Below are positions 9,310-33,170 of a DNA stretch of 64,000 nt, piece by piece (the stretch's first letter is position 1; every line of letters starts with the position of its first letter). Made by a program: the position numbers and the translations under genes. The notes under the pieces were generated by a model that was not told the DNA's origin, searched no databases, and worked only from the letters and a program-made list of their open reading frames with translations. Origin of the DNA: Christiangramia flava JLT2011 (lineage in GTDB: Bacteria; Bacteroidota; Bacteroidia; Flavobacteriales; Flavobacteriaceae); the NCBI RefSeq assembly GCF_001951155.1, contig NZ_CP016359.1:186001-250000 (forward strand). Reading direction: 5' to 3'.

Positions 9310-10854
9310 TTAGCGCGAAAATTCCTGGTTCTTCTCTTTGATAATTTCCTTCACCGGACGGTTTTCAATTTTGCTTTCCAGCCAGGAAATGATGTCAAGA
9401 TATAAAAATGCCCTGCGTTCAAAAGGATGATCTTCATATTTCTTCAGTTTTCCGTGCAGTTCTCGGAACTCATCCTTGATATTCAGCGGGGAGACGTCAG
9501 GTAAATTTCTCAGGAATTTGATCATTTCCTTCTGAACTTCATGAAGATCATTCATTTTGATCAGGAACCGGTACGTAGATTTTACCAGGCTGTCCAGGTG
9601 ATAATCCAGGCCGGCCTCATAGTGCGCTACCAGATTCAGAATTCTCGCAAAACACATGAGATCCTCACGCATTTCCAAAGATTTATTATTGATGATCTTT
9701 TTCAGGAATTCGATACATTTTTTATTATTTCCGTCGCCAAAATATAAACAGGCGATTTTATAATAAAAGATCATGATATGGTGTTCGTCCAGGCGGTCCT
9801 TGAATTTATCGATCTTTTTAGAGATCTTCTCGATCAATTCTTCGGCATTGCTGAACTGCCCTTTCATAAAACGTAAATTCAGCTTATTGGAATACACATA
9901 CAAAAAGGCCAGCGCGGCAATATTGTCATCATGCGGAATTTTTGGGTTCCGCAGCGAATCTTCCAGGTGTTTAAGCGTTTTTTCGAAAAGCTCAGTATGA
10001 TTAAGGTAAAAAAGCGATTCCAACAGATAGTGGTTCCCTTTCAGGTAAGAAACCGGGTGAATGGGGATGAGATGTTCATATTCCTTAAAAAGATCGTTCC
10101 ATTTCATCGAATAGCGGTAGCAACCCAAAAAATCCTGTATTAAAAAGCTATACCACAAATTTGCCTTATACAACCACAATCTTTCCCGAAACCCCAGCTC
10201 ACTGAAGGTGTATTCTGGTAACTGCTTCTGAAAATAAGCTTTGATGTCTGCCGCTTCTTCCTCGGTACGGCAATATCCCATTTTCAGGAAAATGGAATAC
10301 AACTCCAGCGATAAATTAGACAGTTTTCCCGAAATAAGGTTGAGATAGTTCAGCTCCTCGGTTTGCCTGATAAGGCTGTCTGCCCGGTTCTTGATCGAAC
10401 GTGTGATATATTGTGATTCAATGATCTTTTCCAGCTCCAGGATTTCATAGGCAACATTCTTCTCTTCATACGTAAGCGCCTGGGTTTTCACCTTATCAAG
10501 CAGTTTCAGGCTTTGTTTGTACAATCCCTTGTGGTACAGGATCCAGGCAAAATCCAGTTGTTCCCTGATCTGGATAGGAATATCCTGGTGAACAGGGTTC
10601 AATCGAAGGGAGATTAAAAGTTGCTTATATAAATGGGACTTGACGTTGGAAAGTTGCTGTTTGCTGATCTTCGTTTTATCAAGAATTTCCTTTTCGTCAT
10701 ATTTTTTCTGACGGGAAATCACCTTATATAAATTCAGAAACTTGCTATCGGCATTTACGCCAATACGGCCAACATAAAGTGAAAATTGCCTCTTTTCTGA
10801 AGCTGATAAGGACTTTATCAGAGAAAATAGATTTTCGGTTAAGTCATTGGTCAT
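9310..10854 (-). CDS. Conserved Bacteroidota protein of unknown function, helical-repeat type
   Basis: A 514-aa cytoplasmic protein from the ATG at 10854 (MTNDLTENLFSLIKSLSASEKRQF); a TTG nine bases upstream is less likely. No signal peptide, membrane segment or catalytic motif is visible. The sequence is almost entirely amphipathic helix with repeating aromatic and leucine positions, for example LYHKGLYKQSLKLLDKV and FYYKIACLYFGDGNNKKCIEFL. These look like tetratricopeptide-type repeats. The N-terminal 80 residues (SASEKRQFSLYVGR, KISKQQLSNVKSHLYKQLL) might form a small separate helical domain. It diverges from leuABCD. A scaffold or signalling role is a guess; I do not recognise a characterised homologue. 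Confidence 0.75.
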   Translation of the reverse strand: MTNDLTENLFSLIKSLSASEKRQFSLYVGRIGVNADSKFLNLYKVISRQKKYDEKEILDKTKISKQQLSNVKSHLYKQLLISLRLNPVHQDIPIQIREQLDFAWILYHKGLYKQSLKLLDKVKTQALTYEEKNVAYEILELEKIIESQYITRSIKNRADSLIRQTEELNYLNLISGKLSNLSLELYSIFLKMGYCRTEEEAADIKAYFQKQLPEYTFSELGFRERLWLYKANLWYSFLIQDFLGCYRYSMKWNDLFKEYEHLIPIHPVSYLKGNHYLLESLFYLNHTELFEKTLKHLEDSLRNPKIPHDDNIAALAFLYVYSNKLNLRFMKGQFSNAEELIEKISKKIDKFKDRLDEHHIMIFYYKIACLYFGDGNNKKCIEFLKKIINNKSLEMREDLMCFARILNLVAHYEAGLDYHLDSLVKSTYRFLIKMNDLHEVQKEMIKFLRNLPDVSPLNIKDEFRELHGKLKKYEDHPFERRAFLYLDIISWLESKIENRPVKEIIKEKNQEFSR

Positions 10855-10946
10855 TGTAATCAATATATTTTTAAAACACTGTTTTTCAATAATTTACATT
10901 CAAAAAAAGAACAATTAACTATCGTAACAGTTTCCAAAAAATGGGG

Positions 10947-10975
10947 TTTGAAGCGTATGTTTTCCAATACTTTAG
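10947..10975 (+). promoter_or_regulatory. Promoter for leuACDB
   Basis: TTTG at 10947-10950, 17 bases, TACTTTAG at 10968-10975. The predicted start is near 10981, giving a leader of only about 22 bases before the leuA ATG. That leaves no room for an attenuator. Confidence 0.45.
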
Positions 10976-29598: not shown

Positions 29599-31272
29599 TT
29601 AAAATTCATCGGTCACGCAACCCTGTGAGGCTGAAGCCACCGTTCTGGCATATTTATAAAGAACACCGCTTTGTTTTTTAAGTGCAGGCGGCTGCCAGCT
29701 TTTTCTTCTTTCTGCTATTTCTTCTTCGGAAAGTGCTACATCGATGGTATTGGTTTCCGCATTGATTGTTATTTCATCGCCATCCTTCAATAAGGCTAAA
29801 AGTCCGCCCTCCTGCGCTTCAGGAGTAATGTGTCCTACCACAAACCCATGTGTTCCTCCTGAAAACCGACCGTCTGTGATCAGGGCTACATCTTTTCCAA
29901 GCCCTGCACCCATAATGGCAGAAGTAGGTTTCAGCATTTCAGGCATTCCGGGACCACCTTTTGGCCCTTCATACCGAATAACCACCACATCTCCTTTTTT
30001 CACTTTCCCGGAACTAATGCCGTCATTCGCATCATATTCACCGTTGAAAACACGGGCTTTTCCGGTAAATTCCAGGCCTTCTTTTCCGGTAATCTTCGCT
30101 ACGGAACCTTCTTCTGCAAGATTTCCGTATAAAATGCGAATATGACCGGTCTTTTTGATCGGGTTATCCAGCGGGCGGATGACGTCCTGCCCTTCTTCCA
30201 TCTCCGGAACCTCAGCCAGGTTTTCCGCCAGCGTCTTTCCGGTAACCGTTAGACAATCACCGTGCAGCATATCATTCTGAAGCATATATTTCATAACCGC
30301 AGGAATTCCGCCAATTCTATGTACATCTTCCATCGCGTATTTCCCACTTGGTTTCAAATCTGCCAAAAACGGCGTATTGTCACAAACCTGCTGGAATTCC
30401 TTAAGGCCGAAATCGACCTGCGCCGCTTTGGCGATCGCCAGGAAATGCAGTACCGCATTGGTGGACCCGCCCAAAACGGTCAGTAACCTGATCGCATTTT
30501 CCAGGGATTTCCTGGTCACGATATCGCGGGGTTTAATATCTTTTTTCAGAAGCAATTTCATCGCTTCCCCGGCCTTCGTGCTTTCTTCTGCTTTTTCGGG
30601 ACCTACAGCGGGATTTGAAGAATTATAAGGCAAACTCATTCCCAAAGCTTCAATTGCTGAAGCCATAGTGTTGGCGGTATACATTCCACCACAGGCTCCG
30701 GCACCAGGACACGCCTTCTGAATAACTGCCTGGTATTCTTTTTCATCGATGTCGCCGGCTACTTTCGAGCCCCAAGCTTCAAAAGCCGAAACGACATCCA
30801 GTTTTTTCCCATTATGACAACCGGAAGCGATCGTTCCTCCATACACCAATATTGATGGGCGATTCAAGCGCAGTTGTGCCATCAGAGCACCCGGCATGTT
30901 CTTATCGCATCCAACTACGGTTACCAGCCCGTCATAAGACATGGCGCTAACCACGGTTTCCATAGAATCAGCAATGATATCTCTTGAAGGAAGAGAGTAG
31001 CGCATTCCCGGAGTTCCCATGGAAATCCCATCACTTACGCCAATCGTATTGAAAATTAGTCCCACAAGTCCGGCTTGCTCCGTGCCTTTTTTTACGTCTT
31101 TAGCCAGATCGTTCAAATGCATATTACAGGGATTTCCCTCATAACCAGTGCTGGCAATTCCAACAAATGGTTTTTGAAAATCTTCTTTGGTTAGTCCAAT
31201 GGCGTGAAGCATCGCCTGGGATGCCGGTTGAGAATCACTTTGAGTTATTACTTTGCTGAATTTATTACTCAT
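29599..31272 (-). CDS. ilvD: Dihydroxy-acid dehydratase
   Basis: Fe-S dehydratase of valine, isoleucine and pantothenate precursor synthesis, 557 aa from the ATG at 31272 ([13 protein letters not shown]). The longer frame from 31296 would add eight unsupported residues. Cluster-binding motifs: [12 protein letters not shown] (near 47-58), [13 protein letters not shown] (near 115-127) and [24 protein letters not shown] (near 180-205). [16 protein letters not shown] is near the C terminus. It is the first structural gene of the operon, behind the attenuator leader. Confidence 0.96.
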
Positions 31273-31472: not shown

Positions 31473-31500
31473 AAAAAAAGCCATCTTTACAGATGGCTTT
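31473..31500 (-). terminator. Attenuator terminator of the ilv operon
   Basis: AAAGCCATCT (31477-31486) and AGATGGCTTT (31491-31500) form a perfect 10-bp stem with a 4-base loop (GUAA on the RNA strand). Seven A residues at 31473-31479 give a U7 tract on the minus strand. It lies 25 bases after the stop of the Ile/Val-rich leader ORF and about 200 bases before ilvD. Confidence 0.88.
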
Positions 31501-31526
31501 AGTACTTTAAAATATTATGCATCTGT
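31489..31526 (-). promoter_or_regulatory. Antiterminator pairing of the ilv attenuator
   Basis: Minus-strand ACAGAUG (31526-31520) is exactly complementary to CAUCUGU (31495-31489), which includes the 5' arm of the terminator stem. The two structures are mutually exclusive. The upstream arm begins at the leader stop codon, so a ribosome finishing the leader would block it, while one stalled on the upstream Ile/Val codons would leave it free. Confidence 0.75.
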
Positions 31527-31597
31527 CAGGGTCGGTTTCTAATAATAGAAATGACCACAATTACAGTAGCGATAATATTTTGGTTGATCTTAATCAT
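31526..31597 (-). CDS. ilvL: ilv leader peptide (isoleucine/valine-rich)
   Basis: A 23-codon ORF from ATG at 31597 to TGA at 31526. It encodes eight Ile and three Val residues; residues 8-19 read IIATVIVVISII. An in-frame stop lies directly before the ATG, fixing its left edge. It sits 38 bases after the stop of the nitrilase-fusion gene, upstream of ilvDBNCA, and is followed by an antiterminator and terminator pair. This is the arrangement of enterobacterial ilv leader peptides, in which scarcity of charged Ile/Val tRNA stalls the ribosome and prevents termination. No sequence relation to those peptides is implied. TAGATTTG (31610-31603) just upstream resembles a -7 box, but no -33 partner is evident. 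Confidence 0.85.
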   Translation of the reverse strand: MIKINQNIIATVIVVISIIRNRP

Positions 31598-31634: not shown

Positions 31635-33170
31635 TTAACTTTTATTTTTCTTCCTGAGCTTCAGAGAATACAGGTCTTTACGACGATCTTTCAAATTGCG
31701 AACACTTCCGAAATTGTGCAATTCCTTCAGTAGGTCCAGGTCCACATCCACGAGCAGGGTACTTTCCGTATTGGGCGTCGCTTCAGCCTTGATCCCGTTT
31801 ACTGGGAAAGCAAAATCTGAAGGCGTCAACACGGCGCTCTGGGCATATTGAATATCCATATTTGCCACCCTAGGAAGGTTTCCTACCGAACCGGCAATAG
31901 CCACGTAGCATTCGTTTTCCACGGCACGAGCCTGTGCACAGATCTTTACCCGGGAATACCCATTTTGCGTATCGGTCATAAATGGGACGAACAGGATATT
32001 CATTCCCTGATCTTTCAGGATTCGGGGCAGTTCCGGGAATTCAACGTCATAACAGATCAACACTCCAATTTTCCCGCAATCGGTATCAAAGGTCTGAACC
32101 TGGTTCCCGCCTTTCATACCCCATGCCGACTCCTCAGCCGGGGTAATGTGAATTTTCTCAAATCGCTCGTAGCTACCGTCGCGCCGACACAGAAAACCTA
32201 CATTGTACATATGGTCCCCAACAGCCTGCGGCATGCTCCCGGTGATGATATTAATATTATAGTTGATCGCGAATTCGCGGAAAGTTTCCAGCAATCGATC
32301 GGTGTATTCTGAGAGTCCGCGGATGGCTTCTGCCTCATTCAGGTGGTTGAACTCAGCCATTAAAGGCGCATTGAACAATTCCGGGAACAGTACGAAATCG
32401 CTTTGATAGCTACTGATGGTATCCACGAAAAATTCGATCTGCGAAACCAGGGCTTCATAGTTCTTGAACAAACGCATTTGCCACTGCACCAAACCAAGCC
32501 GAACCACGGTTTTGGTAGATTTCACCAGGTTTCCAGATTTCGTATAGTAAATATTGTTCCACTCCATCAATGTGGCAAACTCCTTACTTTCGTGGTCTCC
32601 GGAAAGATAACCTTTGATCACTTTTTTGACGTGGAAGTCGTTCGAAAGCTGAAATGACAGAACCGGATCATGAATCTCCTGCAATTTCACCTTATCGATA
32701 TATTGTTTTGGGGTAAGTTCCGAAGCAAATTTGGAATAATTGGGAATCCTTCCGCCGAAGATGATCGATTTCAGGTTCAGATGCTCACATAATTCCTTAC
32801 GAGCCTCATAAAGCCGTCGTCCCAAACGCATTCCACGGTATTCGGGATGAATGAACACATCAATTCCGTAGAGCACATTTCCATTCGCAGTATGAGTAGA
32901 GAAATTTTCACCGCCAATGATCGAATCATAATCATGATTATCGTCAAACTTGTCATAATCCACGATGATCGAAAGCGCGCAGCCCGCGATCTTATTATCG
33001 ATCTCGATGCATAGCTGACCTTCAGGAAATTTGCGAATAAGCGTTTTAATCTCCTTTTTGGTCCAGTATTCATGCGGCATGGAGTGATAACTTTTGATCA
33101 TCGACTCCTTCAATTCTTCATAATCCTGCACCTGCAGGTTACGAAGCTCAATTTTTGCTGAATCTATCAT
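31635..33170 (-). CDS. GNAT acetyltransferase fused to nitrilase-family amidase
   Basis: A 511-aa two-domain protein from ATG 33170 (MIDSAKIELRNLQVQDYEEL). Residues ~1-200 form a GNAT acyltransferase, with acyl-CoA loop YRGMRLGRRLYEARKEL. Residues ~220-505 are a carbon-nitrogen hydrolase with the Glu-Lys-Cys triad in FVLFPELFNAPL, RFEKIHITPAEES and GVLICYDVEFPEL. Such fusions are common in Bacteroidota, but no substrate is firmly known to me. An acetylation followed by amide hydrolysis, or a coupled repair reaction, is conceivable. It is likely monocistronic and lies between the ilv operon and a two-component unit. Confidence 0.9.
   Translation of the reverse strand: MIDSAKIELRNLQVQDYEELKESMIKSYHSMPHEYWTKKEIKTLIRKFPEGQLCIEIDNKIAGCALSIIVDYDKFDDNHDYDSIIGGENFSTHTANGNVLYGIDVFIHPEYRGMRLGRRLYEARKELCEHLNLKSIIFGGRIPNYSKFASELTPKQYIDKVKLQEIHDPVLSFQLSNDFHVKKVIKGYLSGDHESKEFATLMEWNNIYYTKSGNLVKSTKTVVRLGLVQWQMRLFKNYEALVSQIEFFVDTISSYQSDFVLFPELFNAPLMAEFNHLNEAEAIRGLSEYTDRLLETFREFAINYNINIITGSMPQAVGDHMYNVGFLCRRDGSYERFEKIHITPAEESAWGMKGGNQVQTFDTDCGKIGVLICYDVEFPELPRILKDQGMNILFVPFMTDTQNGYSRVKICAQARAVENECYVAIAGSVGNLPRVANMDIQYAQSAVLTPSDFAFPVNGIKAEATPNTESTLLVDVDLDLLKELHNFGSVRNLKDRRKDLYSLKLRKKNKS

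Follow-up and report, generated by a model that had tools for sequence, protein, structure and literature searches.

Ribosome-mediated attenuation has been studied mostly in enterobacteria, in which the leaders of ilvGMEDA (ilvL) and of ilvB combine an ORF rich in the regulated amino acids with mutually exclusive antiterminator and terminator structures. In Corynebacterium, the leader peptides of ilvB, leuA and trp are encoded by short, apparently leaderless or near-leaderless ORFs with attenuation. Bacteroidota ribosomes seldom use Shine-Dalgarno pairing. In the Bacteroidetes/Chlorobi, attenuators were reportedly predicted by Vitreschak et al. in 2004 using comparative genomics, a prediction of the same kind as ours and in the same broad group. 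Here, we describe a leader ahead of ilvD in a window of 64,000 nucleotides, the whole stretch of Christiangramia flava JLT2011 DNA that we analyzed, which very likely works by attenuation of this known kind, together with a serial variant in relatives that is the newest aspect of the system.

The window leader resembles the enterobacterial ilv leaders in having an ORF of regulated codons and overlapping, exclusive antiterminator and terminator before ilv genes. It differs from them in that its 23-codon ORF lacks Leu codons and has its ATG 5 nt after a -7-like element, in the anchoring of the antiterminator on the stop codon and in a second promoter-like region past the terminator. The likeness to the Corynebacterium leaders, which belong to another phylum and to another promoter type, is one of description. 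Taken together, the data make a control-backed case that Flavobacteriaceae and some other Bacteroidota widely use ribosome-mediated attenuation to control amino-acid genes, with a leader ORF that seems to begin almost at the 5' end.

The leader and its alternative pairings

The controlled operon lies on the (-) strand and starts with ilvD (dihydroxy-acid dehydratase; 31272-29599; NCBIfam TIGR00110/NF002068), followed by ilvB (acetolactate synthase large subunit; 29587-27857; TIGR00118), ilvN (acetolactate synthase small subunit; 27857-27318; TIGR00119) and ilvC (ketol-acid reductoisomerase; 27321-25846; NF003557). The run ends with an ORF at 25846-24578 (-) that we take, as in the preliminary description, to be an ilvA-like threonine dehydratase gene. 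A nitrilase-fusion gene is located directly upstream of the leader and ends at 31635, and the ilvD ATG is at 31272.

The leader ORF, MIKINQNIIATVIVVISIIRNRP, spans 31597-31526 (-), directly follows an in-frame TGA and has 23 codons, of which 8 specify Ile, 3 Val and 0 Leu. The stem of an intrinsic terminator, AAAGCCATCT-GTAA-AGATGGCTTT with a U tail (31500-31473, -), begins after a gap of 25 nt from the stop codon; its arms (31500-31491 and 31486-31477) form 10 bp around a loop of 4 nt, with T's up to 31473. Segment 1 lies inside the ORF (31581-31564, -; minimum free energy fold of the window RNA), segment 2 runs from the last base of the leader stop codon (31526-31509, -; folding and the test of own versus swapped pairing below), and the part of segment 3 that is common to antiterminator and terminator is CATCTGT (31495-31489, -; window folding and genus alignment). 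The antiterminator strand, ACAGATG, is formed by the first 7 bases of segment 2 (31526-31520), its first base being also the final base of the TGA, and it pairs perfectly over 7 bp with CATCTGT, which excludes the terminator. In the minimum free energy fold of the window leader by itself, a protector pairing joins the ORF codons at 31581-31564 to the region of the antiterminator strand at 31525-31509. The ORF agrees to the base with the preliminary description, and the U-tailed terminator (31500-31477, T's to 31473) and the perfect antiterminator claimed there were verified; the protector pairing, a -7-like TAGATTTG and, between the terminator and ilvD, another conserved region come in addition.

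The 128-nt leader folds at -36.3 kcal/mol, compared with -17.26 (s.d. 3.08) for 200 shuffles (z -6.2). When the window was scanned for ATG or GTG ORFs of 8-40 codons that are enriched in one residue and located just before a terminator, the ilv leader was the better of two matches below 2e-3, at 4.3e-4 on Ile alone, the other being a Thr match at 1.8e-3. A candidate for a second leader in the window, the TTG-start MTVVIKIIVNN, was rejected; it lies inside a conserved DNA element whose reading frames differ among relatives.

The element TAGATTTG (P1; 31610-31603, -) ends 5 nt before the leader ATG. We take TAnnTTTG to be the -7 element of Bacteroidota, a few bases downstream of which transcription would begin, and from the position of TAGATTTG we infer a near-leaderless start; no clear -33 element was seen for P1 in the window. 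Across the loci surveyed below, nAnnTTTG, a looser motif chosen after the sequences had been viewed, occurs 3-20 nt before the ATG of 43/83 first leaders compared with 59/1203 other ATGs, and 27 of these 43 have it at 9-11 nt. The strict TAnnTTTG precedes 12/83 first leaders and 18/1203 other ATGs.

In all likelihood, the ilv leader acts as an attenuator of transcription in which the ribosome senses the supply of charged tRNA-Ile and tRNA-Val. RNA synthesis would start at P1, a few bases 5' of the leader ATG. With no ribosome on the leader, segments 1 and 2 would pair and the terminator would form. If Ile or Val is scarce, the ribosome would stall in the Ile/Val run and break the 1:2 pairing, and the freed segment 2 would pair with the emerging segment 3 before the 3' arm of the terminator exists, allowing readthrough into ilvDBNCA. 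If both Ile and Val are plentiful, the ribosome would reach the stop codon and cover the antiterminator strand, so that the terminator would form. Folding was repeated for several ribosome positions, each ribosome being assumed to cover 12 nt beyond its A-site codon. A ribosome at codon 9, 16 or 19 lets the antiterminator form while the terminator 3' arm is still unmade, one at the stop codon allows no pairing ahead of the terminator, so that only the terminator is possible, and without a ribosome the protector pairing is present and the terminator is free to form. The antiterminator by itself is worth -6.5 kcal/mol and the terminator -14.2 kcal/mol, so the predicted switch must act kinetically. 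Covariation, the choice of codons, the control sequences and the occurrence of leaders in related families lend good support to the Ile/Val-sensing mechanism, which the preliminary description had already proposed.

Leaders and a second promoter-like region upstream of ilvD

We collected 249 ilvD loci, comprising 80 from named genome contigs (the best 80 of 592), 30 from a family search, 21 from the genus and 118 stretches. The family search matched in 154/199 genomes and 148 of the listed places were used (30 + 118), with two genomes (G016 and G065) excluded as they offered no upstream sequence; the genus search found ilvD in 22/24 genomes. One locus without upstream sequence (L164) and 3 that duplicated others over their last 250 nt were removed, leaving 245 unique upstream regions. 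A leader was called where an Ile/Val-rich ORF ends 10-50 nt 5' of a terminator. Conserved Ile/Val ORFs across relatives, which the preliminary description had suggested as a check, were found by this automated rule in at least 83/245 ilvD upstream regions; at the strict score such an ORF accompanies 93/174 upstream terminators and 0/159 control terminators, which were taken from the other strand and from downstream sequence, and under a relaxed rule these numbers are 117/174 and 2/159. Some true leaders fall below the threshold among the 162/245 loci without an automated match, including those of L121, L122, L127, L129, L133, L134 and L087. An earlier scan with a score of >=3 and stricter hairpins (0/76 control terminators) was replaced after it had missed evident leaders.

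By record title, the carriers include Meridianimaribacter, Aquimarina, Dokdonia, Gaetbulibacter, Arenibacter, Lutibacter, Algibacter, Maribacter and Zobellia, as well as Sediminibacterium and Saprospiraceae MAGs. Among Flavobacterium-titled records with a species or strain name, 6/7 of those compared have a leader (L066, L067, L068, L076, L078 and L081), and the scan upstream of ilvD found none in Flavobacterium L079, in Chryseobacterium (L047 and L051) or in others. In a phylum sample of 26 loci read by eye, leaders are present in 9/14 loci of one other family (f21), for instance MLSTVISLVIIRVIG... ahead of GCCTTCC- or GCCTTTCC-type terminators, in 2/4 loci of the window's own family and in 0/8 loci from five further families.

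Within the genus, a homologous leader of 23-24 codons occurs in 9/22 genomes (the window, L121, L122, L125, L127, L129, L131, L133 and L134); L087, which is not among the 22, has a related one of 21 codons. Another 4/22 (L119, L123, L124 and L135) have a leader of 17 codons that diverges from it, MISIVEKFVVAVLEI.., followed by a terminator of the CCACCA type but by no clear antiterminator after its stop codon, and in the remaining 9/22 no leader was recognized (L115-L118, L120, L126, L128, L130 and L132). The attenuator thus seems to have disappeared from some members of the genus or to have given way to another there. A hairpin retained without the leader ORF, which the preliminary description had named as evidence against its reading, is what we see by eye in L126 and L130.

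A second conserved element is located between the terminator and ilvD (31430-31371, -), with a palindromic core of the TTTAAAnnACTG-n5-CAGTnnTTTAA type and an upstream ATCGTAA-type block. It is found in 22/22 genus genomes, and a refined profile, with its threshold at the third highest of 490 null scans, matches in 182/245 ilvD loci, of which 67 also have an automated leader and 115 do not. The matches lie 152-241 nt before ilvD (5th-95th percentile; in L028 the element is further upstream), and in 64 of the 67 leader loci the element starts 1-188 nt after the terminator of the last leader. The other three matches, in Flavobacterium L068, L076 and L078, are upstream of the leader terminator and look spurious. 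In the window, a -7-like TACTTTTA (P2; 31305-31298, -) stands 25 nt upstream of the ilvD ATG, at +125 as counted from where the element starts; its last base differs from TAnnTTTG. Among the 164 stronger matches, 61 copies of TAnnTTTG fall at +120 to +129, and no other 5-nt bin holds more than 5; for the looser TAnnTTT the counts are 90 at +120 to +129 and 38 at +55 to +64. The whole region, about 150-170 nt ending at ilvD, is common to the 22/22 genus genomes and to L086-L088, whether or not they have a leader. A structured RNA between terminator and ilvD was considered and rejected, since RNAalifold predicted no common fold for 25 sequences.

We read this region as a putative second promoter with an operator or activator site, the element at 31430-31371 being the candidate operator or upstream part of P2. 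The same element precedes the leuA-like gene of the window at 10841 (+), with TACTTTAG at +127 (region 10841-10975), and it is possible that the two copies represent a shared promoter of a branched-chain regulon.

What share of ilvD transcription does each layer control? P2, from which transcripts would begin at about 31293, would probably supply ilvD transcription that is independent of attenuation and, as the region is 3' of the terminator, the attenuator probably governs only the P1 share. The mechanism advanced in the preliminary description is supported, but its implied claim of a complete switch for ilvDBNCA is not supported, given a conserved promoter-like region beyond the terminator. 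In 15/83 leader loci (six Flavobacterium, five Saprospiraceae MAGs, Sediminibacterium, a Segetibacter MAG, L033, titled Ignavibacteriae, and L234) the terminator ends <100 nt from ilvD, which leaves little room for a P2 layer; in the Flavobacterium loci inspected, this distance is about 40 nt.

In a different interpretation of the region, the hairpin does no more than terminate the nitrilase-fusion transcript, P2 is the promoter of ilvD, and the leader ORF is either vestigial or accidental. The nitrilase-fusion gene directly upstream in the window, the P2-like region shared throughout the genus irrespective of leaders, and the ORF-less hairpins of L126 and L130 would all agree with this. However, a nitrilase-fusion match lies within 900 nt upstream of ilvD in just 24/245 loci and is lacking within that distance in 76/83 automated leader loci, the 15 loci with closely spaced terminators have little room for another promoter, and the window leader retains 11 Ile/Val codons as well as a perfect antiterminator, one pair of which is changed on both sides compared with related sequences. 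We therefore consider this explanation improbable, and attenuation by Ile and Val supply remains our preferred reading of the leader.

Covariation and codon choice

If antiterminator and terminator share a strand, the sequence at the leader stop codon should follow the terminator arm of the same locus. The arms vary among loci (CTTCC, TGTATC, CCATTC, CCATCT and CTCCC types, among others), and the sequence at the stop codon tracks its own arm, with a pairing of 14.67 compared with 11.34 for swapped arms (s.d. 0.29); in 5000 permutations over 93 attenuators the maximum was 12.45, although the loci are related and their independence is thus overstated. The best antiterminator pairing starts -6 to +9 from the end of the stop codon in 69/93 attenuators. 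The covarying stems for which the preliminary description suggested testing are thereby found over the 93 attenuators as a whole, with three arm classes that do not fit: own-arm pairing is 7.0 versus 8.2 with other arms for CCACCA (4 genus loci), 9.2 versus 10.3 for CTCCC (6 loci) and 5.0 versus 8.1 for CCCGCC (1 locus). In most CTCCC loci the best pairing is 5' of the stop codon, within the ORF.

An alignment of ten sequences, from nine genus genomes and L087, gives a closer view. The antiterminator is 98.6% paired in it, with a two-sided change at one pair, and one of the two cells of this change belongs to the window. The covariation score was reached by 11/500 shuffles, and with few changes underlying it the support within the genus is modest. 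The terminator hardly varies in this alignment and shows no covariation. An indel within the leader ORF preserves the frame in the genus alignment.

The codons of the leaders are enriched in Ile (.316) and Val (.160) and depleted in Leu (.055), compared with.088,.051 and.125, respectively, in other ATG ORFs of 10-36 codons from the same upstream regions, and the last Ile/Val codon is at a median of 13 nt 5' of the antiterminator. This composition bears on the idea that the ORF encodes a functional small hydrophobic peptide, membrane or toxin-like, instead of a sensor. The leader ORF is indeed hydrophobic and conserved in frame within the genus, but a membrane peptide has no need to avoid Leu while favoring Ile and Val, the leader sequences of different genera differ except in their Ile/Val runs, and the His and Trp operons of the same genome have leaders with HHHH and WWW; we regard such a peptide as very improbable. 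A non-translated leader of a known kind, such as a T-box, a riboswitch or a catalogued leader RNA, would likewise be structured, terminator-bearing and ahead of an amino-acid operon, but it is hardly credible here, as in the window no Rfam family, T-boxes, riboswitches and leader families included, scored up to its gathering threshold (0 matches).

Serial leaders and the His and Trp leaders

Under the strict score, 10/245 loci have two complete leader-terminator units before ilvD: L015 (Gaetbulibacter), L019, L033, L044 (Lutibacter), L101, L146, L152, L157, L185 and L238. A relaxed tandem rule gives 14/245, and control terminators pass at 2/159 under the relaxed and 0/159 under the strict rule. 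The arrangement belongs to relatives, and the window itself does not have it. In 8/10 tandem loci (all except L019 and L033) a CTTCC/CTTCT-type terminator closes the first unit and a TGTATC/TGTGTC-type terminator the second; both types also occur singly in other loci. The second leader ATG lies 13-46 nt 3' of the first terminator, and a promoter-like motif was seen before 0/10 second leaders, which are therefore probably reached solely via readthrough of the first unit. Together with the coexisting second promoter-like region, these serial units raise the question of how control is divided between the layers.

The same genome has a His leader, MRTNFVHHHHILPHAQAR, with a terminator before hisG (L262; G000:C1 ~3851966-3851910, -) and a Trp leader, MFRTENHIWWWKNLRQKS, with a terminator before trpE (L263; G000:C1 ~781850, +). 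Like the ilv leader, both have a TAnnTTTG-type motif shortly 5' of the leader ATG, an antiterminator that lies over the stop codon in the Trp leader and, with G-U pairs, just before it in the His leader, and a U-tailed terminator, in their case 31-35 nt after the stop codon. Unlike the ilv leader, they sense His and Trp and are present throughout the genus, a His-rich leader with a T run being found in 24/24 and a WWW Trp leader in 23/24 of the genus genomes that have the gene. Outside the genus, L302, L303, L325, L354-L356 and L358 are similar, and the remaining loci are not, or not convincingly, so.

On balance, we lean towards the view that near-leaderless attenuators are a general form of ilv, his and trp control in Flavobacteriaceae and several other Bacteroidota families, part of which would run two serial Ile/Val attenuators before ilvD as two starvation checkpoints.

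Two minor observations concern other leaders. A 13-mer, CGCTCAGGCGAGG, at 31469-31457 (-), just 3' of the ilv terminator, has one other copy in the 4.0-Mb genome, located in the His leader, where it contains the antiterminator strand; this sharing is possibly due to chance, with ~0.1 such copies expected by our own estimate. Finally, before the arg genes of the window (24577-24254, -) there are 2 Arg-containing mini-ORFs, MILRQIILQSYHFRPRRS and MRRFPRRT, with a hairpin spanning the second stop codon, which might together be a candidate Arg-sensing leader.
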